From a virus, in the IMG/VR virus record IMGVR_UViG_3300021957_000067, positions 1 to 46,813 of that record: DNA of 46,813 nucleotides; one strand, written 5' to 3'. This document shows positions 14,859 to 34,330 of the stretch, piece after piece (position 1 is the stretch's first letter; the number at the start of each line of letters is the position of its first letter). The translations under genes and the position numbers were made by a program. Under the pieces are notes generated by a model. The model was not told the origin of the DNA. It was given only the letters and a program-made list of their open reading frames with translations, and made no database searches.

Positions 14859-15350
14859 ATGAGTGATACATCAAATTCAAATAAGATCATTAAATCTGAA
14901 TTATTTCATTTATGGAAGAAGGCCAGGCTTATGTATGACATGGTTAAAGATGATACTGAGCTAGAGGGATGGGTTAAAAACAGTATTAATGAGGCTTATG
15001 ATAATATAAATAAAGCTTTACAGTATATGGAATATAATGAAATATTCCCAGATAAAAAAGATGACTCTGTGATAGACGAAAAAAGCAAAAACAATTATCT
15101 AAGCAATGAAGACAAGAGGTATCCAACTCCCGCAGCTCAAGAAACTGGAGACCAGTTTATGACAAGATGTATTTTAGATGCAAACATGAAAAAGAGATAT
15201 CCTGTGCAAGGAGATCGATTTGCTGCATGCATGTCTATTTACAATGACAAAAAAGAAGAGTCTTCAAATAATCCCGGAGAAAAATTTGAAGACCCAATGC
15301 AAGTAAAAGATCCAGAATTGCCCGATCCTGTTAAGCCTTTGCTTCCATAA
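14859..15350 (+). CDS. Head-region protein with FMTRC motif
   Basis: 163 residues. The N-terminal half has 'ELEGWVKNSINEAYDNINKAL', a helical pair reminiscent of a short domain in many marine phage structural proteins ('E-x-W-V-x-x-K-I-x-x-A'). The C-terminal half holds FMTRCILDANMKKRY then RFAACMSIYN, the same Cys-containing motif as the small gene at 1755. The tail is Pro/Asp-rich. Its 3' end overlaps the convergent clp gene by 20 bases. Virion association is probable but unproven. Confidence 0.6.
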   Translation: MSDTSNSNKIIKSELFHLWKKARLMYDMVKDDTELEGWVKNSINEAYDNINKALQYMEYNEIFPDKKDDSVIDEKSKNNYLSNEDKRYPTPAAQETGDQFMTRCILDANMKKRYPVQGDRFAACMSIYNDKKEESSNNPGEKFEDPMQVKDPELPDPVKPLLP

Positions 15351-17802
15351 TATTAAAAACAATCTTATCCTTTACTAAAGAAAATTTTATTTCTTGATTT
15401 TCTTGAACTTCTTTTGATAGAAGTAATTTAGAAAGTTCGTTTTCGATATTTTTCTGTATTAATCTTTTCAGTGGTCTAGCTCCCATTTTTTCTTCAACAG
15501 CAAGACTCGCCAGAAAACGACAGGCCTTTGGGGTTACAGAGAGTTTTATTTTTTTGCCGACAAGCTTGTTTGCAAGTTCGGCTATTTCTAATTTAGTGAT
15601 TTTAACCAAATCTTCTTCGCCGAAATCTTTAAATAGAATAATTTCATTCAGGCGATTTAAAAACTCAGGTCTAAAGAATTTTTTAAGTTCAAGCTTTAGT
15701 TTGTCCATAGCTTCTGTCGGGCTAGATGAGCCTCCAAATCCAATTGATGGTTTTGCTACTTGCTCGCTACCAATATTTCCTGTTAAAATAATTGTGCAAT
15801 TAGAAAAATTAATCTTTCTTCCAGAGTTATCTGTCACAAATCCTTCTTCTAGTATTTGTAATAAAATATTTAGTACTTCTGGGTGAGCTTTTTCGACTTC
15901 ATCAAACAACACAACGCTATATGGATTGCGTCGAACTTTTTCGGTAAGCTCTCCGCCTTCTTCATATCCAACATATCCAGGCGAAGCTCCGATCAATCTA
16001 CTGGCGGAAATCTTCTCTGAAAATTCACTCATGTCGAGTTGGATCAATTTATCTTTACTTCCATATATAAATTCAGCGATACATTTTGCGGTATATGTCT
16101 TACCTGTGCCACTTGCTCCAACAAGAAGAAAGCTTCCGACAGGTTTATTGCTATCTTGCAATCCAGATTTAGATCTTAATATGCATTCCGAAATTTCTTG
16201 AAGAGCTTCTGATTGACCAACGACTTTCTGTTTTAATTTTTTAAATAATCCTAATAATTTTTCAGAGTCTTTTTTGGAAACATCAGATACTGGAACACCT
16301 GTTCGAGAAGATATGACTTCATATATATCTTTCTTTTTTACGGAAATTTTATTTTTTAAAGTTTTCTTCGCCCACTCTGATATAATTTGATCATATTCTT
16401 CGAGTAATTCTAACTGCTGGTCTTCAATGGCAAGCGACTCTATGCCGCTCGCAATCATTTTACTTTCTTTTAGAGCCAGTTCTTCTAATTTTTGCTCAAT
16501 ATCTTTGGCTGCTTGAGGCCGTTCAATATTTTGAATTTTTACTTTTGATCCAGCTTGATCTAATATATCTATAGCTTTATCGGGAAACTGCTTGTCAAGA
16601 ACATATCTTGCGGTAAGATCGATAACAAGATCCAATACTTCATCAGGATAATATATACTATGAAATTCTTCATATTTATGTTTTATTCCTTGTATGATTT
16701 GTCGAGCTTGTTCTTTTGTGGGTTCAATTACTTTTACTGCTTGAAAGCGTCGATCTAATGCTCCGTCTTTAAGTATAGATTTTTTATATTCTTCTTGAGT
16801 TGTTGCGCCAATACATTTTAGCTCGCCTCTGGCCAATAATGGTTTTAATAGATTTGCAGCATCCATGCTTCCTTCTGCGCTACCTGCGCCTACTAGAGTA
16901 TGGATTTCGTCGACAAATAGTATTATATCTTTATTTTTCTTAGCTTCTTCTATGATCCCCTTTAATCTTTCTTCAAACTGCCCTCTATATTTAGTTCCTG
17001 CGATAAGAGAGCCAAGGTCAAGCGAGTATATAATCTTTGAAAGCAAGAAGTCGGAACATTCTCCTTTAACTATGTTTTGGGCAAGACCTTCTACAATCGC
17101 AGTTTTTCCAACTCCAGGCTCTCCCAATAGTACGGGATTATTTTTTGTTCTGCGACATAAAATTTCACATACATCATATATTTCTTTTTCTTTTCCAATG
17201 ATATTATCAAATTTACCCTGTACAGCTAGTGCATTTAAATTGGTGGCAAACTTTTCAAGATTTTGCATTTTTGTTTCTTTAGCTGAAGTTGGTTGTTGAA
17301 AAAGTTTTGGTTTTTTCTTTGTTGGAGATTTATGCTCTTTTGATAAATGTAGATATTCTCTTACTTCTGAAATGATATCATTTTCTGTGGCATTAAAAGA
17401 TTCAAAGTAATCTGGAATATTAGATTCTTCGTATTTTAATAATGCAAGTAAAATATGTTCTATGCCTACATATTCATGCCCAAGTTTGTCCGCGATTGAA
17501 GCGGAAACCTTTAGTACAAGATGAAAGTGTTCGTCATATATAGGATCAATATCGTCTGGAATAAAAGAGTGAGTTTCTTCGCTTGATAATGTAAAAAAAG
17601 AATCTTCTACTTTTTCCTTTAATGATTCTTGATCAATTTGTAATAAAAATAGTATTTCTGTTAAAATTCCAGCATTTAAGTTGACCATGCCAAAGAATAG
17701 GTGGTCTAGTGTCACATATTCATTGCCATACTTTTTGGCGGCTTTTTTCGCTTCAGTAATTGCTTGTTGCGCTCTCGGCGTAAAATTAGGTTTTGGAGTC
17801 AT
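15331..17802 (-). CDS. clpA: ClpA/ClpC-type AAA+ unfoldase with ClpP-binding loop
   Basis: About 823 residues. An N-domain (two Clp repeats, about 1-150) and linker precede two AAA modules: GEPGVGKT (229-236) with ILFVDE (296-301), and GASGTGKT (564-571) with VVLFDE. The middle region is short, unlike ClpB, so this is a ClpA/ClpC type that feeds a protease rather than a disaggregase. The tripeptide IGF (689-691), at the place of the ClpA 'IGL' loop, should dock host ClpP. No clpP or clpS is in the window. Residue numbers count from ATG 17808. ATG 17802 is preferred because it lies 7 bases after a class B motif, against 1 base for 17808. Confidence 0.92.
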   Translation of the reverse strand: MTPKPNFTPRAQQAITEAKKAAKKYGNEYVTLDHLFFGMVNLNAGILTEILFLLQIDQESLKEKVEDSFFTLSSEETHSFIPDDIDPIYDEHFHLVLKVSASIADKLGHEYVGIEHILLALLKYEESNIPDYFESFNATENDIISEVREYLHLSKEHKSPTKKKPKLFQQPTSAKETKMQNLEKFATNLNALAVQGKFDNIIGKEKEIYDVCEILCRRTKNNPVLLGEPGVGKTAIVEGLAQNIVKGECSDFLLSKIIYSLDLGSLIAGTKYRGQFEERLKGIIEEAKKNKDIILFVDEIHTLVGAGSAEGSMDAANLLKPLLARGELKCIGATTQEEYKKSILKDGALDRRFQAVKVIEPTKEQARQIIQGIKHKYEEFHSIYYPDEVLDLVIDLTARYVLDKQFPDKAIDILDQAGSKVKIQNIERPQAAKDIEQKLEELALKESKMIASGIESLAIEDQQLELLEEYDQIISEWAKKTLKNKISVKKKDIYEVISSRTGVPVSDVSKKDSEKLLGLFKKLKQKVVGQSEALQEISECILRSKSGLQDSNKPVGSFLLVGASGTGKTYTAKCIAEFIYGSKDKLIQLDMSEFSEKISASRLIGASPGYVGYEEGGELTEKVRRNPYSVVLFDEVEKAHPEVLNILLQILEEGFVTDNSGRKINFSNCTIILTGNIGSEQVAKPSIGFGGSSSPTEAMDKLKLELKKFFRPEFLNRLNEIILFKDFGEEDLVKITKLEIAELANKLVGKKIKLSVTPKACRFLASLAVEEKMGARPLKRLIQKNIENELSKLLLSKEVQENQEIKFSLVKDKIVFNIMEAKA

Positions 17803-17809
17803 CTTCATT

Positions 17810-17824: not shown

Positions 17825-20386
17825 TTATTTAACGTCTGACATTTTCATGTAGATCTTTTCATCCATAATATTTAATGAGTCTAGAAAAACTATATCTTCT
17901 CCTTTCCTGCCATATGCAACAATTATGCTTTTTTTAACGGGAGTTTTATTTTTTGCCTCAAAATACTTGTCATAAAAATTACCTCTTCTTGAGTTTAAAA
18001 GCATGGCATCGTATTTGCCGAACTCGTCTGTAATAGAAAGTTTCATGTATTTATTTCCATTACGGGATGTTCTTTTGATGCAATCTTCTACTACTCCAAT
18101 GAATTTTCCTTTGTCATCTGCCTCCATTATTCTTAAATCTCTAGAGTCTTTTAATGAATTGTAGCTATCAATAAAACAGCTTTTCAAGTTAGAACTATGG
18201 CTGTAGCCAAGTAATTCTGTTTCAAAATACCAGTTCGCAAAGCTTTCGTATTGTTTATTTTTGTCATAAATTGATTTATATATATCATATTTTTTCTTGA
18301 ATGTTTTAAATCTAGATTCTTTCATTAGGGGTTTTCCGTCATCTCCAACCAGATCTCCCTTTTTTGCATCTGCTATGCAGTTTAAGAGTTTGAATTCATA
18401 TTTTTCCCCCAAAAGAATAAAATTTCTTTTTTCTCTATCGGTTAATAAATTAAATGCTTGAGCTTCCAATACCATCAATGATCTATTAGAACCTTTACTT
18501 TCTAATGCTCCTGCTTGAATTAAAGCGCTAAGAACACCAATATTTAATCCAGCCTGCTTCGCGGCCAAAAAGATATCGTATTTTGTTGGAGTTTGGCTTG
18601 ACCTGAAATCTCTAAGGGATTGCAAGGACTTCTCACTTACCCCTTTGATACTATTTAATCCAAATCTAATATCTTTTCCTTCAATCGAAAAATCCATTCC
18701 GGATTTAGCAAGATCAGGGGATAAAAGCTTTATGCCAAAGAAAGATAATTCCTTAGAGACCTTCGCTATTTCTTCCTGTGGTGCAGGTTCGTATTTGGTC
18801 ATTTTGAGCAAAGATAGAAAGAACTGTTGAGGGTATTTAAACTTTAGATATGTCGTCCACGCCGCAAGTACAGAATAACTAATCGAGTGAGATTTATTAA
18901 ACGAATAGTTTGCACTATCCTCCGCGACTCCCCAAAGTATATCTCCAATTTCTGGCGAAAGTTTATTTTCTTTTATTTTATCTTCGATTTTAGCTTTCCA
19001 AGCAGGCATTTGATCTACTTTTTTCTTTCCAACGATCCTTCTTAATTGTTCTGCTTCGTCAAGTGTAAAGCCAACCTTAACAGCCATCTGCATTAACTGC
19101 TCTTGATACAATGGAATTCCTCCCGTATAATCTAATACATCAGTAAAGAATTCATGAATTACTTGAGCTTCTTGCGTTTCTATATATGTTGCGTAATCAC
19201 CAAGAAATTCTAAAGCTCCAGGTCTTCCAATAGCCACAACAGCGCTTAACTCCTCTAGATTGCCAGGCTTGACTTTCTTGCAAACCCTGAAGTTTGTATC
19301 AGACTCTAATTGAAATAGTCCATGAGGCGCATTCAAGGATTGCAGGGGCTTATAAATTTTATCATCATTAAGATCAATATCTGCGCAATCAATACCTATG
19401 CTCTTGCAGACATCATAAATAACACTCAAAGTCCTCAATCCAAGAATATCAAACTTAACCATGAGCTCTGAAACCCAATTCATATCGTACCCAGTAACTA
19501 ACGCTCCATCATTTGATGTTTGAATAGGGCAAATGTCCGTCATTTTATCGAAAGATATAGCTATGCCGCTAGGATGAACTCCTGTGTTTTTGTTTAGCCC
19601 CTCTAGTTTTAAAGCTATATTAAAAACTTCTGCATTGTTTGCGGACCAATCGACAAACTTTTCGCTTTCTTCCAATGCTGTTTTAAGGGGTACTACAACC
19701 CCGAATTTTTTAGGAATAGTATTACTGATTTCATTTACCTCTTGCTCAGAAAACTCTCCAACAATCTTACCACATTCTTTTATGCAAAGTTTTCCGCTTA
19801 ATGTATTTAAGGTTAGTATCTTCGCAGTTCTTCCTGGATGCTTTTTATCGATATAATCGATCACTTCGGCGCGTCTTTCGTAGGCGATGTCGTTATCCAC
19901 ATCTGCAAGCAAGCTTCCATCAAGATAAGTTATGCCATTTTTTTCTATCTTTCTCGCACGGCTTTTTGATACAAATCTCTCAAAGAATAAATTATACTTA
20001 ACAGGGTCAACATTTGTTACTCCAATTAAATACAAAACAAGAGATCCTGCCGCAGATCCTCTGCCTGGACCAGTAGGAATATCATTTTCGTGGCAATAAT
20101 TTAATATATCCCAATTTAATAAAATATAATCTATAAATCCAAGTTCATCTAAAATAGATAATTCTGATTTTGCTCTTTCAAAGTATTCTTTCTTATTGTC
20201 GAATTTATCGATTCCTCTATCGTATACTCCTTTATGACATAATTTTCTAAGAAAGTCGAAGTTGGATATATCTGGAGATGCCTCAAGCATCTTATAATAC
20301 TTATTTTCAATTTTAATATTTGGAAGACGAACTCCTGCAGGAACACAGTCTTCGTAATTTGTAAAGTTATTTGTAAATTCGCTCAT
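17825..20386 (-). CDS. dnaE: DNA polymerase III alpha-type catalytic subunit lacking PHP domain
   Basis: 853 residues; the cellular alpha subunit is about 1,160 because it begins with a PHP domain that is absent here. Motifs run in the correct order: GPGRGSAAGSL (palm), ADVDND with Asp167 and Asp169, VKFDILGLRTL with Asp318 (the three catalytic aspartates; numbering from ATG 20401), YQEQLMQMA, FNKSHSISYS, helix-hairpin-helix-like 'AGLNIG', and a C-terminal OB-fold (about 745-850). Catalysis should be intact. ATG 20386 overlaps the exonuclease stop as ATGA and has GGGA upstream, so it is preferred to 20401. This is the replicase; clamp contact would be near the C-terminus. Confidence 0.93.
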   Translation of the reverse strand: MSEFTNNFTNYEDCVPAGVRLPNIKIENKYYKMLEASPDISNFDFLRKLCHKGVYDRGIDKFDNKKEYFERAKSELSILDELGFIDYILLNWDILNYCHENDIPTGPGRGSAAGSLVLYLIGVTNVDPVKYNLFFERFVSKSRARKIEKNGITYLDGSLLADVDNDIAYERRAEVIDYIDKKHPGRTAKILTLNTLSGKLCIKECGKIVGEFSEQEVNEISNTIPKKFGVVVPLKTALEESEKFVDWSANNAEVFNIALKLEGLNKNTGVHPSGIAISFDKMTDICPIQTSNDGALVTGYDMNWVSELMVKFDILGLRTLSVIYDVCKSIGIDCADIDLNDDKIYKPLQSLNAPHGLFQLESDTNFRVCKKVKPGNLEELSAVVAIGRPGALEFLGDYATYIETQEAQVIHEFFTDVLDYTGGIPLYQEQLMQMAVKVGFTLDEAEQLRRIVGKKKVDQMPAWKAKIEDKIKENKLSPEIGDILWGVAEDSANYSFNKSHSISYSVLAAWTTYLKFKYPQQFFLSLLKMTKYEPAPQEEIAKVSKELSFFGIKLLSPDLAKSGMDFSIEGKDIRFGLNSIKGVSEKSLQSLRDFRSSQTPTKYDIFLAAKQAGLNIGVLSALIQAGALESKGSNRSLMVLEAQAFNLLTDREKRNFILLGEKYEFKLLNCIADAKKGDLVGDDGKPLMKESRFKTFKKKYDIYKSIYDKNKQYESFANWYFETELLGYSHSSNLKSCFIDSYNSLKDSRDLRIMEADDKGKFIGVVEDCIKRTSRNGNKYMKLSITDEFGKYDAMLLNSRRGNFYDKYFEAKNKTPVKKSIIVAYGRKGEDIVFLDSLNIMDEKIYMKMSDVK

Positions 20387-21027
20387 ATTTCTATTTCCCA
20401 TATCATTTTTTTAAACACCTCAAAGTTAACATTAATATCATACAATGCATCATGTAGCTTTTTATCGTCAAATTCTACATCAAAATCCTTGCAGCACTGC
20501 TTGAGATTGCAGCTTAAACCTCGCTCAATAAGATGGTTTAACCTATATTGCCAAGCAAGAAAGTCGTCATCTTTATCCAAACGAATTCTTTTCTTTAGCG
20601 CCTTAGCTAAGCATAATGTATCTACGAGATTTTCTGTATAACTAAAATCTGATTCCGCGTTTTTATCAACTAGTTTTCTGTGGAGATTGTGCATGTAAAC
20701 ATCAAAACCTAATAGATTGTGTCCAACCTTAATATAACTATCATCGTACAAATACTTCTCGAAATGCTCCAAGGCCGCTTTTGGGCAAGATGCTTTCTTT
20801 TTGTATTTGGCCTCTGTGAAACCTGTGATTTTTGCGGCATCAGGAGATACATTCAGTGTTTCCCATTTTAGCCAATAATCTTTTTGTTCTACGATTTTAT
20901 TGTTTTCTATCACTAGAAACGCTAATTGCCAAGGCTTATTATGAGAAACAAGATTTAAATTGCATGTCTCATAATCGAACAGTAGGTATTTTTGATTTTT
21001 CTTAAATCTAAGCAGTGATTCTTTCAT
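20383..21027 (-). CDS. dnaQ: DnaQ-like 3'-5' proofreading exonuclease
   Basis: 214 residues from ATG 21027, which has GGAAGG 6 bases upstream; the longer frame to 21069 would lie inside the preceding gene. All three DEDDh motifs are present: FDYET (Asp18, Glu20), VGHNLLGFD (Asp109) and LHDALYD (His192, Asp197). It should remove mismatched 3' ends for the polymerase encoded next, with which it overlaps by 4 bases. Its 5' end overlaps the PHP-like gene by 20 bases. In Gram-positive PolC the exonuclease is inserted inside the PHP domain; here it is a separate gene between PHP and polymerase genes. Confidence 0.9.
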   Translation of the reverse strand: MKESLLRFKKNQKYLLFDYETCNLNLVSHNKPWQLAFLVIENNKIVEQKDYWLKWETLNVSPDAAKITGFTEAKYKKKASCPKAALEHFEKYLYDDSYIKVGHNLLGFDVYMHNLHRKLVDKNAESDFSYTENLVDTLCLAKALKKRIRLDKDDDFLAWQYRLNHLIERGLSCNLKQCCKDFDVEFDDKKLHDALYDINVNFEVFKKMIWEIEI

Positions 21028-21781
21028 TTTTTTCCTTCCAGCTTTGAAAGCAAAACTCATTGCTTCCAAAATGATCTAAATTTGGTTTACTTAATGTTTT
21101 ATTTCCGAAAGTTCTTCCTGTAATGCACTTGTAAGTTTGAAGTGCGGATACATCTTGTTTATTTTTATAGTATATACTTTTTGTATATTCTGTTTTATTT
21201 GTATTTTTCGAGGCATATTCTTTTACTTTTCCTTCAATAAATTTGTCGAAAGGTAAGCCATTGTCTTCAATAAAGAAAACTGGATCGCAAAAACTAAAGC
21301 TTGGTGTGCAATTAGAAAATTTCATTAAATTATTATATATAAAGCTATCATAAAATGGAATAGCTAAAATAAGATGTTTCTTTTTCCAGTGTTTTTTAAG
21401 CGTTTTTTCATCTACGCAGTTATGATTTTTTGTAAATGCTTCGCTATATATATTATTTAGCAATTTGCATCCAACAGAATCTCTTGCGAAAATGATTATT
21501 TTATGCGCGCTATTAGTAGGTTCCTCTTTTGGATCAATTCCTGCATTTTCTCTCATGTCAATTCTAAGCCCGAAAACGAGCTTTAAATTTAATTTATCTG
21601 CATTTTTCTTTGCTTGAAGGAAACCTGTGAGGGAATCTTCTACAAGGACAACTTCTTTTAGGTTATTTTCTACGGCAATACTAAAAATACTATCTGATCC
21701 ACCTTCTTTATGTGTAATTGGATCATCCAGCGTCAATATACTTTTGCCGATAGAGTAGTGGCTTTTAAATAATGGTAACAT
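21008..21781 (-). CDS. Degenerate PHP domain of DNA polymerase III alpha, free-standing
   Basis: 257 residues from ATG 21781. The order of blocks follows the front of DnaE: an 'LFKSHYSIGKSIL' strand where PHP domains have HxHSxYS, 'EVVLVEDSLTGFLQAKKNA' where they have TDHG, 'LKLVFGLRI' where they have IxGCE, then 'HKIIIFARDSVGCKLLNNI'. The metal-binding His/Asp residues are mostly replaced, so it is probably a structural or exonuclease-binding module, not an active phosphoesterase. ATG 21781 lies 7 bases after a -10 hexamer; ATG 21805 would lie upstream of the -10 and cannot be used from that promoter. First gene of the PHP-exo-pol operon. Confidence 0.7.
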   Translation of the reverse strand: MLPLFKSHYSIGKSILTLDDPITHKEGGSDSIFSIAVENNLKEVVLVEDSLTGFLQAKKNADKLNLKLVFGLRIDMRENAGIDPKEEPTNSAHKIIIFARDSVGCKLLNNIYSEAFTKNHNCVDEKTLKKHWKKKHLILAIPFYDSFIYNNLMKFSNCTPSFSFCDPVFFIEDNGLPFDKFIEGKVKEYASKNTNKTEYTKSIYYKNKQDVSALQTYKCITGRTFGNKTLSKPNLDHFGSNEFCFQSWKEKNERITA

Positions 21782-21788
21782 GCCAACT

Positions 21789-21817
21789 ATTTTATCAAAA
21801 AACATTCATGATGTCAA
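21789..21817 (-). promoter_or_regulatory. Class A promoter for the PHP-exo-pol operon
   Basis: Minus strand TTGACA (21812-21817), 17 bases, TAAAAT (21789-21794). The -10 ends 7 bases before ATG 21781: leaderless or nearly so. Divergent from the nrdA promoter. Confidence 0.8.
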
Positions 21818-21891: not shown

Positions 21892-24309
21892 ATGGATATA
21901 AAAGTAAAAAAAAGAAATGGTCGTCTTCAAGACTTTAGAGTCGAGAAAATAAATACTAATGTAGAGCGAGCTTGCGAAGGCGTTGCAGATGTTTCTGTGA
22001 GCGAAATTGTTCTCGATGCTCAGCTTCAGTTATTTGATAAAATTACCACCCGAGAAATCGATACCGCACTTATATTAAGCGCTCGTGAAAAGATAGAGAA
22101 GGAACCTAATTATAGTTCCGCCGCGGCTCGATTACTATTAAATACAGTATATAAAGAGGTATTCAAAGAAGGCGTTGATAGTGACGCATTCAAACTTCAG
22201 TATCGTAAGAGCTTTATTCAGGGCATTAAAAAACTCGTTAAAAGCGGCAGACTTAACGAGCGAATGCTAGAGTATGATCTAGGCAAGCTTTCTGAGGCAA
22301 TTCGTATTCGTCGCGACAATTCTTTTAAATATCTTGGGATTCAAATTTTAACAGACAGATACTTTATTCGTGAAGATGATAAAATCATGGAGGCTCCGCA
22401 AAGTTTTTGGATGCGTGTTGCCATGGGTCTTGCGCTAAATGAAGAAAATAAAGAAGAGTGGGCTATCAAGTATTATGATATGTTTAGCCAATTTTTATAT
22501 ACTTCTTCAACTCCCACATTGTTTAATAGTGGAACAGCTCGTTCTCAATTGAGCAGTTGTTACCTTAATACTTTTGATGATAGTATTGATGGTATTTTTG
22601 ATGGCGCTTGGCAAGAAGCTAGAAAAAGTAAATATGCAGGCGGATTAGGTCTTGATGTTACTCCATTTCGTTCCACAGGTTCACACATTGAGGGTACAAA
22701 TGGTATCTCTAGCGGACTTGTTCCGTGGCTAAAGATTTATAACGACCTTTTGGTAGCAGTAAATCAGGGTGGAAAACGTCCAGGAGCAGGATGCGCATAT
22801 CTTGAGCCTTGGCACTTAGACTTTGAGGACTTTCTTAATCTTCGAAGAAACACTGGAGATGATCGTTTGCGTTGTCACGATATGAATACTGCGTCGTGGG
22901 TGCCTGATGAATTTATGCGTCGCGTTCAAAATGAAGATGCTTGGTATTTCTTTGATCCTAGAGAAGCTAATCTGCATGATTGTTTCGGTGTAGAATTTGA
23001 TAAAAAATACAATGAGCTTTGCGATAAAGCAGAAGAGGGTTTAATTAAGAATTATAGAGTAACTCCCGCAAAAGAATTATGGAAAAAGATGCTCAAGGTA
23101 TTATTTGAGACCTCGCATCCATGGAACACATTTAAAGATCCATGCAATATTCGTTATACCAACCAGCACGAAGGCGTAGTTCATAGCAGTAATCTTTGTA
23201 CAGAAATCACTCTTCATACAAAAGCATCTGAATATACAAAAGGAGAAAAAACTAAAGTTGGAGAAACTGCGGTTTGTAATCTTGGTTCTGTTAATTTATT
23301 GAATCATTTAAAAGATGATAATACTTTAGATTATGATAAATTAGAAAATACAATACATACTGCTATTAGGGCTTTAGATAGTGTTGTTGATCTTAATTTT
23401 TATCCAACTAAAGAGGCAGAAAATAGTAATTTAAAACATCGTCCTATTGGTTTGGGTATGATGGCATTGCATGATGTATGTCATAGAATGAATATTAATA
23501 TTGATAGTGATGAAGCTGTAGAGTTTAATGATAAGTTATTCGAATTTTATTCTTATCACTCAATCCTAGCAAGCTCTCAACTAGCAAAAGAAAAGGGCAA
23601 ATACGATACATTTGAGGGCTCTCTATGGAGTCAGGATAAACTACCTATGGATTCATATGCTGATTTAATGAAATACAAAGGTAAAAGCGCGAATAACTCT
23701 TCTTCTTTAGATTGGAGCGTGGTTAGAAATAGCATTGCTGAAAATGGAATGAGAAATAGTAATGTCATGGCTATCGCCCCAACTGCTACGATTGGATATA
23801 TTAACGGAGTTGAGCAGAGTATAGAGCCTAATTTCTCTGTGCTTTTTGTTTATGAAAACAAGAGCGGTAACTTCTTTATTACCAATCAACATTTTATTGA
23901 TGACATGAAGAATGCAGGGCTTTGGAATAGTGAAATAGCCCAGCTTGTGAAAAGCGTTGATGGAGATTTGTCTTTATTAAATGGAGATATTCCTGCCGAA
24001 TTAAAAGAAAAATATAAAACGGCATTTGATCGTGATATGTTTAAATTGATTGAATGTAATGCTGCTCGTCAAAAATGGATAGATCAAGCAGTTAGTTTTA
24101 ATTTGTATAATAAATCTACTTCACTGAAATATTTAAATGATGTTTATATGGCTTGCTGGGAGGCAGGATTAAAAACAACTTATTACCTGCGAAATCGTGC
24201 AGCTTCTAAGGTGGAGAAATCTCATACGAGCGATAGTAAATCTGCCGAAGCTACAGCTTGCAGTATTGAGGCTATGAAAAATGGTGGCACCTGCGAAAGT
24301 TGTCAGTAA
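21892..24309 (+). CDS. nrdA: Class I ribonucleotide reductase large subunit
   Basis: 805 residues, usual length. An N-terminal ATP-cone (about 1-90) suggests allosteric overall activity control. Catalytic residues are present: Cys223 and Cys462 as the redox pair, and Asn434-x-Cys436-x-Glu438 as the active-site radical set (NLCTE). The Tyr-Tyr dyad lies in LKTTYYLRN, and the C-terminus ends in C-E-S-C-Q for re-reduction by thioredoxin or glutaredoxin. It converts ribonucleoside diphosphates to deoxy forms for phage DNA synthesis. It has its own promoter and is followed by nrdB with a second promoter. Confidence 0.96.
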   Translation: MDIKVKKRNGRLQDFRVEKINTNVERACEGVADVSVSEIVLDAQLQLFDKITTREIDTALILSAREKIEKEPNYSSAAARLLLNTVYKEVFKEGVDSDAFKLQYRKSFIQGIKKLVKSGRLNERMLEYDLGKLSEAIRIRRDNSFKYLGIQILTDRYFIREDDKIMEAPQSFWMRVAMGLALNEENKEEWAIKYYDMFSQFLYTSSTPTLFNSGTARSQLSSCYLNTFDDSIDGIFDGAWQEARKSKYAGGLGLDVTPFRSTGSHIEGTNGISSGLVPWLKIYNDLLVAVNQGGKRPGAGCAYLEPWHLDFEDFLNLRRNTGDDRLRCHDMNTASWVPDEFMRRVQNEDAWYFFDPREANLHDCFGVEFDKKYNELCDKAEEGLIKNYRVTPAKELWKKMLKVLFETSHPWNTFKDPCNIRYTNQHEGVVHSSNLCTEITLHTKASEYTKGEKTKVGETAVCNLGSVNLLNHLKDDNTLDYDKLENTIHTAIRALDSVVDLNFYPTKEAENSNLKHRPIGLGMMALHDVCHRMNINIDSDEAVEFNDKLFEFYSYHSILASSQLAKEKGKYDTFEGSLWSQDKLPMDSYADLMKYKGKSANNSSSLDWSVVRNSIAENGMRNSNVMAIAPTATIGYINGVEQSIEPNFSVLFVYENKSGNFFITNQHFIDDMKNAGLWNSEIAQLVKSVDGDLSLLNGDIPAELKEKYKTAFDRDMFKLIECNAARQKWIDQAVSFNLYNKSTSLKYLNDVYMACWEAGLKTTYYLRNRAASKVEKSHTSDSKSAEATACSIEAMKNGGTCESCQ

Positions 24310-24327
24310 TTTTGATCTAATTTAATG

Positions 24328-24356
24328 TTGACTTCGTTATAATAATTTGATACTAT
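24328..24356 (+). promoter_or_regulatory. Class A promoter for nrdB
   Basis: TTGACT (24328-24333), 17 bases, TACTAT (24351-24356); ATG 24365 is 8 bases beyond. Lies in the 55-base nrdA-nrdB gap, so nrdB can be made separately. Confidence 0.75.
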
Positions 24357-24364
24357 AAACTTAT

Positions 24365-25378
24365 ATGAATGATAAAACAGGAGAACTTCTCACACAAAAC
24401 ATAGCTGGTGTAAACCGAATCTTACCTCATAAACATAAATATGCATGGGACTTATTTTTAAAAAGTTGTGCAAATAACTGGATGCCTACTGAAATAAGTA
24501 TGCAAAATGATATTAAACAATGGAAAAATGATGAAATTACAGAAGATGAAAAATTACTTGTTAAACGCTGTCTTGGGTTTTTTGCTGGATCTGAGTCTTT
24601 GGTTGGTAATAATCTTTTGCTTAGTGCCTTTAGATTTATTACGGACGCTGAGTGCCGCCAATACATCCTTCGTCAAGCGTTTGAAGAAAGTCTTCACAAC
24701 CTTACGGTAGTATATGTTTGCGATAGCTTAGACCTTGATATTGAAGAGGTATTCGCTGCATACGAAACGGTTCCAAGTATTAAAGCCAAAGATGACTTCT
24801 TAATGGAAATCACTAATGATATTAGCCGTCAAGATTTTTCTACAGAAACTGTAGAAGGTAAACAGGAATTATTAAGGAACTTTCTTACTTATTGGATTGT
24901 ATGCGAAGGTACATTTTTCTTTAGTGGGTTTGCAATGCTTCTTGCTCTTGGTAGACAAAATAAACTTCAAGGAATTTCTGATCAAATTAAATATACTCTT
25001 CGCGATGAAAGTTCTCATATTGCATTTGGTACATATCTAATTAATACTTTAATCGAGCAAAATCCTGAGATCTGGACAGAAGAAATACAACAGGAATTTG
25101 TTGAGCATATGAAAAAGGCTGTTGAGCTCGAAATAGCTTACGCACACGATGTTCTTCCTACAGGTATACTTGGGTTAAATGCAGATATGTTTGTAGAATA
25201 TATGCACTATATTGGCAATCGAAGGCTAGAAGGTATTGGTTTAGATTATCGTTTTCCTAGCGATAAAAATCCTTTTCCTTGGCTTAGTGAGGTTGTTGAT
25301 GTTCAAGCAATGGGCAATTTCTTTGAACGAAGAGTTAGAGAATACCAGCAAAGCGGTTCTCTTGAAGATGATTTTTAA
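24365..25378 (+). CDS. nrdB: Ribonucleotide reductase small subunit, class Ic-like (no radical Tyr)
   Basis: 337 residues. Six metal ligands can be read: Glu77 (GSESLV), Glu108 and His111 (EESLH), Glu181 (CEGTFF), Glu215 and His218 (DESSH). The first is Glu, not the usual Asp, and the residue four after His111, normally the radical Tyr, is Val115. That combination matches the class Ic group (Chlamydia type, Mn/Fe centre) rather than class Ia. Surrounding sequence (FEES-L-H...YVCDSL, VPSIKAKDDF) also resembles that group. The C-terminus (SLEDDF) should dock NrdA. A hairpin terminator follows. Confidence 0.93.
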   Translation: MNDKTGELLTQNIAGVNRILPHKHKYAWDLFLKSCANNWMPTEISMQNDIKQWKNDEITEDEKLLVKRCLGFFAGSESLVGNNLLLSAFRFITDAECRQYILRQAFEESLHNLTVVYVCDSLDLDIEEVFAAYETVPSIKAKDDFLMEITNDISRQDFSTETVEGKQELLRNFLTYWIVCEGTFFFSGFAMLLALGRQNKLQGISDQIKYTLRDESSHIAFGTYLINTLIEQNPEIWTEEIQQEFVEHMKKAVELEIAYAHDVLPTGILGLNADMFVEYMHYIGNRRLEGIGLDYRFPSDKNPFPWLSEVVDVQAMGNFFERRVREYQQSGSLEDDF

Positions 25379-25396: not shown

Positions 25397-25425
25397 AAAG
25401 AAGCCTCCTTCGGGAGGCTTTTTTA
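25397..25425 (+). terminator. Intrinsic terminator between nrdB and DUF1501
   Basis: An 8-bp stem, AAGCCTCC/GGAGGCTT (25401-25408 and 25413-25420), with TTCG loop, then TTTT on the plus strand. A-rich bases on the left could let it also serve the convergent minus-strand gene, whose stop codon lies in the T run. Confidence 0.9.
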
Positions 25426-26721
25426 TGCAATAATATCAAACAAAGGTTCGCCTTTATGTGCGATAGTAAAAGGTCTGCCAGAAGGAGAATATTGAACATC
25501 ATTAATAGATAAACCAAGAACATAAGCTATTGTAGCATTTAAGTCTTCTGGTTTTACTGCTTTACCTTCTGTGGGATTTCTTCCTTGGTCATCGACTTGA
25601 CCAAAAGAAAATCCGCCCTTAACTCCGCCTCCGGCAAGAAAAGCGCTAAAGCAATACGGCCAATGATCTCTTCCGTTTCTGCCATTTATTTTTGGAGTTC
25701 TGCCGAATTCCGATGTTAAAACAACTAAAGTTTCATTGAGTAACCCTCTTCGCTCTAGATCAATAAGTAGGCCACTTAAAGCTTGGTCAATATCCGCACA
25801 ATTTGTAGCAACTCTTTCGAAGTTATTATCATGCGTATCCCATCCACCTCTAGACACTTCTACATATCTCACTTTATTTTCTATTAATCTTCTAGCTAAT
25901 AAGCATCCCTGTCCAAAATTAGTATTACCATATAATTCGTTCATGGATTCTGGTTCTTTACTAATATCAAAAGCATATAAATCTTGACTATTCATTAATT
26001 TAATTGCATCTTTATATAAATCTCCATAAGCTCTTACTTTTTTATGAGGATATGATTTTGAGAAATCTGAATTTAATGCATTAACCATTGACATTCTGCT
26101 ACCAAAATGCTCTTGATCAATATAAGGTGCAAGTTTACTATTTGCAAGTCCATTTCTTGCGTTGCTTATTGGCAGCGCTCCATATTTAGACTCTAAAAAA
26201 CCTGCTCCTCCGCCGCCTCCACCGATTTTTACATTCATTGGTATAGTATTATTTATTGCACCAGAAAGTTTAGATACCCAGCTTCCAAATGTGGGATGAA
26301 CGATTGTTCCTCTTTTAAGATAACTTGTTTGCATAAGGTAGCTCGCTTGCATGTGAGCGCCTTGACTGGTACTCATTGTTTTAATAATTGAAGCGTGATG
26401 CATTAACCTTGCAGTTTTTGGTAAATTCTCAGATAGAATAATTCCGTCTGCGCTTGTAGATATTGATTTTAAATCACCTTGAATTTCTGGGGCATCTGGC
26501 CTAGGAGCAAATGTATCTATATGAGACATTGCTCCAGACATATTTAAATAAATTACGTGCCTTGCTTTCGCAATCCTAGCTCCAGGTTGTAACGCTTTAA
26601 CATCATTATGAATATAACTTCCAGCCATAGGCATAAGGCCTACTCCAAGACAGGCTTTTGCTGCATGAGCAATAAACTCGCGCCTGCCAAGTTCATCTAT
26701 ATTTTTGAGATTCGTGTTCAT
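25423..26721 (-). CDS. Tat-exported DUF1501 (alkaline-phosphatase/sulfatase-fold) protein
   Basis: 432 residues. The N-terminus GRREFIAHAAKACLGVG is a twin-arginine-type signal. The body fits DUF1501: HVIYLNMSGAMSHIDTFAPRP, then LVVLTSEFGRTPKINGRNGR, DHWPYCFSAFLAGGGVKGG. This family belongs to the alkaline phosphatase/sulfatase superfamily and is very abundant in Planctomycetota, Verrucomicrobiota and Lentisphaerota, usually beside DUF1553/DUF1549 genes; none is here. Its biochemical role is not established. It looks full length, so not a decaying fragment. A phage copy is unexpected and probably host-derived. A class B motif precedes the start. Confidence 0.85.
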   Translation of the reverse strand: MNTNLKNIDELGRREFIAHAAKACLGVGLMPMAGSYIHNDVKALQPGARIAKARHVIYLNMSGAMSHIDTFAPRPDAPEIQGDLKSISTSADGIILSENLPKTARLMHHASIIKTMSTSQGAHMQASYLMQTSYLKRGTIVHPTFGSWVSKLSGAINNTIPMNVKIGGGGGGAGFLESKYGALPISNARNGLANSKLAPYIDQEHFGSRMSMVNALNSDFSKSYPHKKVRAYGDLYKDAIKLMNSQDLYAFDISKEPESMNELYGNTNFGQGCLLARRLIENKVRYVEVSRGGWDTHDNNFERVATNCADIDQALSGLLIDLERRGLLNETLVVLTSEFGRTPKINGRNGRDHWPYCFSAFLAGGGVKGGFSFGQVDDQGRNPTEGKAVKPEDLNATIAYVLGLSINDVQYSPSGRPFTIAHKGEPLFDIIA

Positions 26722-31944: not shown

Positions 31945-31953
31945 TTATTACAC
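31945..31953 (-). promoter_or_regulatory. Class B GTGTAATAA motif
   Basis: Minus strand GTGTAATAA, 6 bases before ATG 31938. The TAA at 31948-31950 is also the stop of the GDP-fucose synthase gene, so stop and promoter motif are fused. Confidence 0.55.
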
Positions 31954-32904
31954 AAATTTTTGTTTATTTTCTAAGTACCATTTGTATGTTTTTCCTAACC
32001 CTTCTTTTAATGTATGTTTTGGTACGCACCCCATGCTAATCATTCGACTATTGTTCATTTTTTTTCGGTAAGTGCCATCAGGCTTTGAGCTGTCGAAAAC
32101 AATCTCGCCAGTATAGCCGACGACATCTTGTATTATATTTGTTAATTCAAGAATAGAGACTTCATCTTCAGATCCGCAATTAAGGTGAGAGATTCCTTGT
32201 TCGTATACGTCGATTGCATCGACAGATTCTAGACAACGTGTCGACATTTCTGCCAAATCATCGACATATAAAAATTCCCGCAACGGTTTCCCTGAACCCC
32301 AAACTTCAATCGTTTTCGCGCCATTTTCTTTCGCTTCATGAACTTTTCTAATTAGCGCAGGAAGAACATGCGAACTTTTTAGATCAAAGTTATCTCGCGG
32401 CCCATACATATTGCAAGGCATAATTGAATAAAAATTTCTATCATATTGCTCATAATAACTTTCACATAATTTAATTGCTGCTATTTTTGCAATTGCATAT
32501 GGTTCATTTGTTTTTTCTAATACTCCAGTTAATAAACTTTCTTCTACAATTGGTATATCTGCGTCTTTAGGGTAAATACATGAACTGCCTAAATTGATTA
32601 ATTTTTGTACATTAAGCTTGTGGGAGGAATGTATAATGTTGCTTGCTATTTGTAAATTTTCATATATAAAGTCTGCGCGATATGTGTTATTGGCAAGAAT
32701 GCCTCCAACTTTTGCAGCGCAGATAATAACTGCATCAGGTCTTTCGCGGCAGAAAAAAGACTCTACATCTTTTTGTTTCGTTAGGTCAAGTTGCCTGCGA
32801 GTTTTTGTTAATAAATTTTTATAACCATTTTTAGTTAAATGTTTAAGAACGGCTGAGCCGACCATTCCATTATGGCCTGCTACAAAAATTTTCTTTTCTT
32901 TCAT
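31948..32904 (-). CDS. fcl: GDP-L-fucose synthase
   Basis: 318 residues, an extended short-chain dehydrogenase: nucleotide loop G-H-N-G-M-V-G-S (10-17), active-site SSCIYP and Tyr-x-x-x-Lys in YAIAK, and substrate segment 'PCNMYGPRDNF'. It epimerises and reduces GDP-4-keto-6-deoxymannose with NADPH to GDP-L-fucose. It follows the Gmd gene with a 4-base overlap, completing the two-step route from GDP-mannose. Product fucose could decorate host lipopolysaccharide or virion parts; no fucosyltransferase is in the window. Confidence 0.93.
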   Translation of the reverse strand: MKEKKIFVAGHNGMVGSAVLKHLTKNGYKNLLTKTRRQLDLTKQKDVESFFCRERPDAVIICAAKVGGILANNTYRADFIYENLQIASNIIHSSHKLNVQKLINLGSSCIYPKDADIPIVEESLLTGVLEKTNEPYAIAKIAAIKLCESYYEQYDRNFYSIMPCNMYGPRDNFDLKSSHVLPALIRKVHEAKENGAKTIEVWGSGKPLREFLYVDDLAEMSTRCLESVDAIDVYEQGISHLNCGSEDEVSILELTNIIQDVVGYTGEIVFDSSKPDGTYRKKMNNSRMISMGCVPKHTLKEGLGKTYKWYLENKQKFV

Positions 32905-33932
32905 CTACTTAATTGCATATAATCATTTTGATACATCTTGCGAACTAGGCCTTGAAAATCAGTTTTTCGCGTCCATCCCATTTCATTTTCTGCAAGACTA
33001 CAATCTCCACACAATTCGTGAACTTCTGCAGGTCGATAAAATTTTGGATCAACTTCAAAAATCAACTCTCCATCTAAGGTGTGATATTTTTCATTATCTT
33101 CTGATCCAGAGGATGTAAAATCAATATTTGCATATTCAAGTGTTTTATTTAAAAATTCTCTTACTGTATGCATTTCGCCACTACCCAAGACATAATTCTT
33201 GGGTGTTTTTTGGTTTAGCATTAACCAAACCCCTTCCATAAAATCCTCTGCATCACTCCAATCTCTTTTCGCTTCAAGATTGCCAAGTTTTAAAACTGGA
33301 ATTGGTTTTTTATTTTCGATTGCGAGCTTAATTCTTGCAACGGAGTTGCTAATTTTTCGAGTTACGAAATCTAAACCTCTTCGAGATCCTTCGTGATTAA
33401 AAAGCCAACCTTGAACTGCATATAAATTATATGATTCCCTGTAAACTCTGACTAAGTGTCTCGCTCCACATTTAGCTGCGCCATATGGACTCTGAGGTCT
33501 AAGGGGGTGTTTTTCATCTTGAGGGCTGTAAATTACATCTCCAAATTCTTCAGAGGATCCAGCGTTATAAAATCTACAGTTTGGAGCAAATCTTCGAATT
33601 GATTCGAGAATATGAAGCACTGCATCTGCATCTGTGTCCCATGTTTGAATCGGGTAATCCCAGCTTCCTGCAACAAAAGACTGAGCTGCAAAATTGATAA
33701 AATAATCAGGTTGCAGATCGATTACTACATCACGCATACTATGCGCATCATTTAGGTCCATGTTGATCAGCTTAAACCTCGGTTCGTTTTCTAAGTGCAA
33801 AATATTCTCGTGGTTTTTAACACTTAATCTTCGAACGGCTCCATATATTTCATAGTCCGTATGCTTTAATAAATAGTCAACCATGTGACTGCCGTCTTGT
33901 CCGGTTACTCCTGTTACTATAATTTTTTTCAT
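32901..33932 (-). CDS. gmd: GDP-mannose 4,6-dehydratase
   Basis: 343 residues, full length. The NADP loop reads TGVTGQDGSH (7-16); catalytic residues lie in GSSEEFG (Ser-Glu) and YGAAK (Tyr-x-x-x-Lys), with the family segment NHEGSRRG and 'VLGSGEMHTVREF'. It dehydrates GDP-mannose to the 4-keto-6-deoxy intermediate used by the next enzyme. It overlaps both neighbours by 4 bases (Nudix upstream, Fcl downstream). Marine phages are known to carry this pair. Confidence 0.95.
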   Translation of the reverse strand: MKKIIVTGVTGQDGSHMVDYLLKHTDYEIYGAVRRLSVKNHENILHLENEPRFKLINMDLNDAHSMRDVVIDLQPDYFINFAAQSFVAGSWDYPIQTWDTDADAVLHILESIRRFAPNCRFYNAGSSEEFGDVIYSPQDEKHPLRPQSPYGAAKCGARHLVRVYRESYNLYAVQGWLFNHEGSRRGLDFVTRKISNSVARIKLAIENKKPIPVLKLGNLEAKRDWSDAEDFMEGVWLMLNQKTPKNYVLGSGEMHTVREFLNKTLEYANIDFTSSGSEDNEKYHTLDGELIFEVDPKFYRPAEVHELCGDCSLAENEMGWTRKTDFQGLVRKMYQNDYMQLSR

Positions 33933-34330
33933 TTTAACATTAAAATTGATTTTTTTGTTTGTTTTGTTATTGGATTTGGGAGTGTGTTGTTATCTATACG
34001 AAAGAACCCCCACTCATCATGTTCTAACGCATCTTTTGCTTTTTCACTCGGATATATGAGTGATTCAATTTCTGTATAAAAAACTTGAAAATAATTTCCA
34101 TCTTCCATCTCAAAAGTTGTCAGTGGTTTTATTTCTGTGAAAAGTTTAATATCTGTCTCTTCAAAAAATTCTCTTTTAACCGCTTCAAGCGGAGTTTCTC
34201 CTGGGTCTATCATACCACAAGGCATTGACCAATAGCCATTTAAGCTTTGGCAATCTTTAGACCTTCTGCCTAGTAGGGCTAGGTTTCCAAATTTAACAAT
34301 TATTCCTGTTGCCGTTATTGTTTTAACCAT
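33929..34330 (-). CDS. Nudix hydrolase
   Basis: 133 residues. The Nudix box is complete in its metal-binding part: G-M-I-D-P-G-E...K-R-E-F-F-E-E-T (residues about 39-60). Nudix enzymes cleave X-diphosphates. Its 4-base overlap with gmd, and the Nudix GDP-mannose hydrolase (gmm) found in many gmd-fcl clusters, suggest a GDP-sugar substrate; yet the box here is canonical, unlike that of Gmm, so nucleotide clean-up or capped RNA are also possible. Overlaps the RecB-like gene by 8 bases. Confidence 0.88.
   Translation of the reverse strand: MVKTITATGIIVKFGNLALLGRRSKDCQSLNGYWSMPCGMIDPGETPLEAVKREFFEETDIKLFTEIKPLTTFEMEDGNYFQVFYTEIESLIYPSEKAKDALEHDEWGFFRIDNNTLPNPITKQTKKSILMLK

Follow-up and report, generated by a model that had tools for sequence, protein, structure and literature searches.

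The role of the PHP domain in bacterial replicases, whether as a second proofreader, as a structural part or as a dock for an exonuclease, is a long-standing question. In the DNA polymerase III (Pol III) of Escherichia coli, residues 1-270 of the alpha subunit form a well-behaved fragment that is sufficient for binding of the epsilon exonuclease, and in the complex of Pol III, clamp and exonuclease the latter lies between the PHP domain and the clamp, against the PHP domain and placed like the exonuclease domain of PolC (PMC3642679). The E. coli PHP domain furthermore stabilises the polymerase, which is destabilised by PHP mutations, and loss of the PHP metal site tracks with lineages having a separate epsilon (PMC3666897), while almost all C-family enzymes possess the domain (PMC3919608). 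The DNA analysed here is a virus record of 46,813 bases (IMG/VR record IMGVR_UViG_3300021957_000067), the whole of which is referred to as the window. Three consecutive genes on its minus strand encode a free-standing PHP domain of the DnaE type in which the metal site has been lost, a DEDDh 3′-5′ exonuclease and a DnaE-type Pol III alpha core without a PHP domain.

The PHP gene (21008..21781, minus strand; 257 amino acids) was identified from profiles, from its AlphaFold2 fold and from its ligand columns. Its reading frame is open to a first ATG at 21805 (21008-21805), the conserved start being that at 21781. It is followed by the exonuclease gene (20383..21027, minus strand, counted from the conserved ATG), the 214 amino acid product of which belongs to the DnaQ/RNase T superfamily, and by the core gene (17825..20401, minus strand; 858 amino acids), which comprises the palm, thumb, fingers, helix-hairpin-helix (HhH) and C-terminal oligonucleotide/oligosaccharide-binding (OB)-like regions and for which a second in-frame ATG at 20386 is an alternative start. 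These open reading frames (ORFs), their order and their strand match those given in an earlier note on this DNA, which had also put the two overlaps at 20 and 4 bases. The overlap of 20 bases between the PHP and exonuclease genes (21008..21027, minus strand) stands, while that between the exonuclease and core genes measures 4 bases (ATGA; 20383..20386, minus strand) only if the core starts at 20386, and 19 bases if it starts at 20401. Against the NCBIfam model PRK05673 (DnaE1; length 1146), the PHP gene product aligns to positions 12-250 and the core to positions 286-1026. Because the two alignments span these two stretches, the PHP and core genes are, as judged from this profile, one DnaE-type Pol III alpha that has been cut at the boundary between PHP and palm and that lacks the C-terminal domain.

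When IMG/VR was scanned with the core, 154 relatives were returned, 80 of which were kept, and alignment-based scans yielded at least 476 confirmed relatives of the core, at least 581 of the PHP protein and at least 496 of the exonuclease. Among the loci fetched, 139 distinct viral loci contain all three genes, and a search of these for the same gene order and for fused versions found the order php-exo-core on one strand in 139/139 and a fused ORF in none. The full gene set is furthermore present in 243/243 core loci that have 4 kb or more of upstream sequence and in 256/256 php loci that have 6 kb or more of downstream sequence, both counts including repeat fetches of the same contig. Unrelated genes intervene in many relatives, with gaps of up to 2.3 kb between php and exo and of up to 1.1 kb between exo and core. 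As assigned by reading the sequences rather than by profile search, these look IMPDH-like, cupin/oxygenase-like, HNH and coiled-coil; an IMPDH/GMP-reductase-like gene, recognised in the same manner, lies between the PHP and exonuclease genes of loci L034 (6398-7372), L045 (6048-7001) and L039 (6114-7082). An exo/core overlap is possible with at least one ATG in 98/139 loci and a php/exo overlap in 69/139, while an ATG at -4 of the exo/core junction occurs in 60/139 relatives. As unrelated genes separate the trio in many loci, tight translational coupling is not a precondition of the split, and the co-translation proposed in the earlier note thus fits the genome of the window but is not required generally. 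A programmed frameshift fusion as the general mechanism was rejected, given the whole unrelated genes that stand between php and exo or between exo and core in many relatives. Wherever the synonymous substitution rate (dS) could be computed, the non-synonymous rate (dN) was far below it. The layout is real, widespread and well conserved in a large group of uncultivated phages, which joins the few phages that use C-family polymerases.

The PHP gene product matches the Pfam PHP family just below the curated cut-off (7.8e-5) and the DnaE family phrog_405 of PHROGs (3.8e-10), while its profile aligns to those of five phage DnaE PHP domains (Probability: 96.7; E: 4e-10). An AlphaFold2 model based on 47 family sequences (mean predicted local distance difference test, pLDDT: 87.9; predicted template modelling score, pTM: 0.86) finds as its best solved structures in Foldseek the PHP domains of Pol III alpha subunits, with the E. 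coli structure 2hnh matching at an E of 6.6e-13 and a template modelling (TM) score of 0.74 by query length. The earlier note had named a chain without the PHP fold as grounds for its own refutation, and on this evidence that refutation fails. Active PHP domains are called by a set of nine ligands, HHDHEH[C/H]DH (PMC12926913). The nine positions map to L4, K6, K13, D49 (or S50), R73, K94, F143 (or Y144), S202 and Y204, the exact column being uncertain by one residue at two of them; the first three were read by eye from a MAFFT alignment, motif I having been missed by hhalign. None of the nine positions carries its canonical ligand in any of the 139 PHP sequences, such that the replacement of the HxH and TDH residues, to which attention had been drawn beforehand, is borne out and exceeded by the loss of all nine metal ligands.

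The residues found in their stead are far from random. Position 6 is Lys in 132/139 sequences and position 13 is Lys or Arg in 138/139, while K94, the pair F143 and Y144, and Ser or Thr at position 202 are each found in 139/139. The conserved replacement residues comprise K6, K13, E48, D49, R73, K94, F143, Y144, S202 and Y204, many of them Lys or Arg. The nine ligand columns have a mean conservation of 0.90, compared with a value of 0.58 over all columns, and 0/20,000 random sets of nine columns are as high; with the alternative column mapping, a fraction of 0.0003 of the random sets reaches the conservation of the ligand columns. Because strongly conserved replacements occupy all of the ligand positions, the residue pattern indicates that the metal site is rebuilt rather than left to decay. 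The dead site of the E. coli PHP domain likewise carries arginines, R10 and R203 (PMC3666897).

The exonuclease matches the Pfam family RNase_T (3.3e-13), and its model (pLDDT: 94.1) matches DnaQ/epsilon and RNase T by structure in Foldseek. All of the DEDDh residues are present, as previously reported, namely D18, E20, D109, H192 and D197, and the set is intact in 139/140 sequences, the sole exception being a change of Asp to Glu. By profile, the protein is nearer to the PolC exonuclease domain (NCBIfam: 3.5e-14) than to DnaQ (8.7e-8). In the model, the 214 amino acid chain stops right after the last helix, and thus has no epsilon-like C-terminal tail for PHP binding; it has a conserved N-terminal LLR motif of its own.

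The core matches the Pfam families DNA_pol3_alpha (6.5e-62), finger (1.7e-33) and HHH_6 (3.9e-15), with no Pfam match to PHP. It is a DnaE by sequence (8e-98, compared to 1e-5 for PolC), and a PolC origin was rejected on these values. Residues D167, D169 and D318 correspond to D401, D403 and D555 of E. coli and are invariant in 135/135 sequences, in agreement with the earlier description of a core with three catalytic aspartates and no PHP. The alignment to DnaE1 extends only to approximately position 1026 of 1146, and the extreme C-terminal domain, which binds tau in E. coli, is absent, while the OB-like match at residues 756-803 is weak. No conserved candidate for a clamp-binding motif was found in the core at the usual place after the HhH region, the sole invariant match to a clamp motif being QEQLM at residue 433, inside the finger domain. 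In a maximum-likelihood (ML) tree of cores, the family forms one clade on a long stem (support: 100/100); its sister group was not resolved, with HyRo and NC1 forming long branches. Ten relatives of 116-211 kb contain one PF07733 match each, and in 8/10 of these a single RNase_T match is located beside the core. No match to PolA, PolB (PF00136) or the beta clamp was detected in the ten, with working controls, although the records may be fragments. As each has a single C-family core and none of these other components was detected, the three-gene polymerase is probably the sole replicase of these phages.

At the level of sequence, the parts of a replicase, their co-occurrence and the intact active sites of the exonuclease and polymerase are established. 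Because these parts resemble the alpha-epsilon arrangement of E. coli taken apart, we propose that the three genes encode one proofreading DnaE-like replicase in pieces, in which a dead PHP would dock the proofreader; this assembly is what we infer, with a probability of roughly 0.7. The free PHP chain would fold on its own, bind the core at the place taken by the PHP domain in fused enzymes and keep the DEDDh exonuclease close to the primer strand as it exits, acting as a structural adaptor and not as a nuclease, while the core is predicted to synthesise DNA and the exonuclease to edit it. The basic residues at the former metal positions would probably stabilise the cleft through salt bridges to invariant acids (E48 and D145) or join a new docking surface. 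A docking platform is a plausible reading of the PHP protein and the best supported of those considered. As PHP, proofreader and polymerase are naturally separate proteins here, and the metal site has been removed, each of the roles suggested for PHP could be tested by adding or omitting one protein.

Three observations weigh against this docking. The exonuclease lacks the C-terminal tail by which epsilon binds PHP in E. coli, and any contact between PHP and exonuclease must therefore be new and involve another surface than that used in E. coli. The free PHP proteins of the phages Weasels2 and Terapin appear to keep their ligands, and as such the free state alone does not explain the loss of ligands. 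Finally, RNase_T genes are present in both Faust and Finn, and the PHP of Faust looks intact; since Faust carries both, any trade-off between the PHP metal site and an exonuclease is not strict, and a strict exchange of a live PHP for an exonuclease is not supported.

The free PHP may instead have left the replicase for another task, such as regulation of replication or binding of a host protein, leaving the exonuclease and core alone as the polymerase. Such a departure is in keeping with its encoding by a separate gene, with the invariant residues with which the former metal cleft has been rebuilt and with the unrelated genes that often separate it from the other two. The PHP gene is, however, never absent or unlinked and its product keeps the fold of a Pol III alpha PHP domain, while a core without PHP would be unusual in view of the destabilising effect of PHP mutations in E. 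coli (PMC3666897) and the near universality of the domain in the C-family (PMC3919608), and we regard this explanation as unlikely. Less probable again is an arrangement in which the exonuclease and PHP each attach to the core through a surface of their own, without reliance on one another, with PHP only stabilising the core and docking no exonuclease. The LLR motif of the exonuclease, its missing epsilon tail and the stabilising role that PHP also has in E. coli (PMC3666897) would suit this arrangement, whereas in the E. coli complex the exonuclease is found against PHP, placed similarly to the exonuclease domain of PolC (PMC3642679), and it is precisely in a family invariably equipped with the exonuclease that the PHP metal site has disappeared.

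Polymerase genes interrupted by inserts are known from other phages, as in KLEB27-3, where an HNH gene lies between two alpha genes, and the trio might by analogy reflect an artefact or decay, through an assembly error, frameshift, intron or intein in a single dnaE gene. This is almost certainly not the case, as the same three genes occur in 139 distinct loci, the gene ends coincide with the limits of domains, the junctions showed neither intein nor intron sequence, the catalytic residues are conserved and dN is far below dS where computable. No relative joins the genes, and the assembly or frameshift error that the earlier note had raised against its own proposal fails. Along with an intein, these errors are refuted by the 139 loci of the same layout, the conserved active sites and the complete sets in the 243 core and 256 php loci.

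A Clp-type AAA+ ATPase gene is located directly downstream of the core (15331..17808, minus strand) as part of a conserved cassette, and is adjacent to the core on the same strand in 109/120 distinct loci. The encoded protein, which the clade of loci L072-L081/L089 lacks, is of the ClpA/B/C type and contains two Walker A motifs together with a ClpP-loop-like IGF motif; a dedicated unfoldase beside a replicase is unusual. A more elaborate form of the docking proposal can be advanced tentatively, and is possible if rather doubtful: PHP would be a free essential adaptor that has a rebuilt Lys/Arg cleft, contacts a tail-less exonuclease resembling that of PolC in a manner unseen in known Pol III, and might be remodelled by the dedicated Clp ATPase downstream. 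Genes for DnaB and primase are located upstream on the same strand in approximately 70% of the loci.

Class I ribonucleotide reductase genes are also found near the replicase, at 21892-25378 on the plus strand of the window and in loci L002, L005, L018 and L021. They occur in about one fifth of the loci compared, and their position and strand differ between loci, suggesting that they moved. Further along the window, the gene at 25423-26721 (minus strand) encodes a DUF1501 protein of full length (1.2e-105) for which PHROGs offers no good match, DUF1501 being a family known as cellular rather than phage, while an Hsp20/alpha-crystallin small heat-shock gene is present in this phage at 27508-27960 (minus strand; 1.9e-16). 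Epimerase, GDP-mannose dehydratase and NUDIX genes lie in a row at 31948-34330 (minus strand) and may form a nucleotide-sugar module. With regard to the host, two relatives of the phage locus are found in contigs of Flavobacteriales metagenome-assembled genomes (MAGs), one of these MAGs having a second copy, which hints weakly at a flavobacterial host. The Flavobacteriaceae MAG G011 (L379/L135, L377 and L375) contains two contigs with a phage-type core beside its own DnaE of 1461 amino acids, and at least two such phages were therefore binned with it.

Among the described systems, the alpha-epsilon pair of E. coli (DnaE1 with DnaQ) shares with the phage locus a DnaE core with the same catalytic aspartates, a PHP of the same fold that is depleted of metal ligands and a separate DEDDh exonuclease. 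It differs in that its PHP is the N-terminus of alpha and its epsilon has a C-terminal tail for PHP, while the phage core is without the C-terminal domain. The order of PHP, exonuclease and polymerase is similar in the PolC of Gram-positive bacteria, the exonuclease domain of which is the closest to the phage exonuclease by profile. PolC is, however, one chain, with an N-terminal OB domain and with the exonuclease inserted inside PHP, whereas the exonuclease is a separate gene following PHP in 139/139 of the phage loci, a difference from PolC that had been correctly pointed out in the earlier note. In the DnaE1 of Bacteroidetes with a fused exonuclease, the order within one chain is exonuclease-PHP-polymerase (PMC3919608). 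A DEDDh exonuclease is here likewise genetically tied to DnaE, and Flavobacteriales MAGs hold the two relatives mentioned above, but in the phages each part has a gene of its own and the order is PHP-exonuclease-polymerase.

Split Pol III alpha subunits have precedents in phages. In the jumbo phages of group 2.2, the split falls inside the catalytic region, between the NTP-binding and the Mg/template-binding part, the genes lie at a distance from each other and a family B polymerase is also present (PMC7824862). These phages share with the present family a C-family catalytic subunit in separate genes, whereas here the catalytic core is whole in one gene and PF00136 gave no match in the ten large relatives. 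Closer in layout are the Rhodococcus phage Weasels2 (gp101/gp102) and the Gordonia phage Terapin (gp65/gp67), in which a free PHP gene is located upstream of a DnaE core with about the same cut; in these two phages, however, the PHP metal residues look intact by eye, no exonuclease gene lies between and no RNase_T match was found in either genome. The Weasels2 core groups with the fused polymerase of Faust in the ML tree (support: 100/99), and the Weasels2 split is therefore independent. Comparison of the PHP protein and exonuclease against named phages by tblastn gave no matches, and no description of the three-gene layout was found in the searchable literature, beyond the reach of which lie most subscription papers. 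The view of the earlier note that such a replicase is unfamiliar thus holds in part: a Pol III alpha divided between phage genes has its precedents in the jumbo group 2.2 phages, Weasels2 and Terapin, while what is new is the combination of a free PHP devoid of metal ligands and an exonuclease gene placed between the PHP and core genes.

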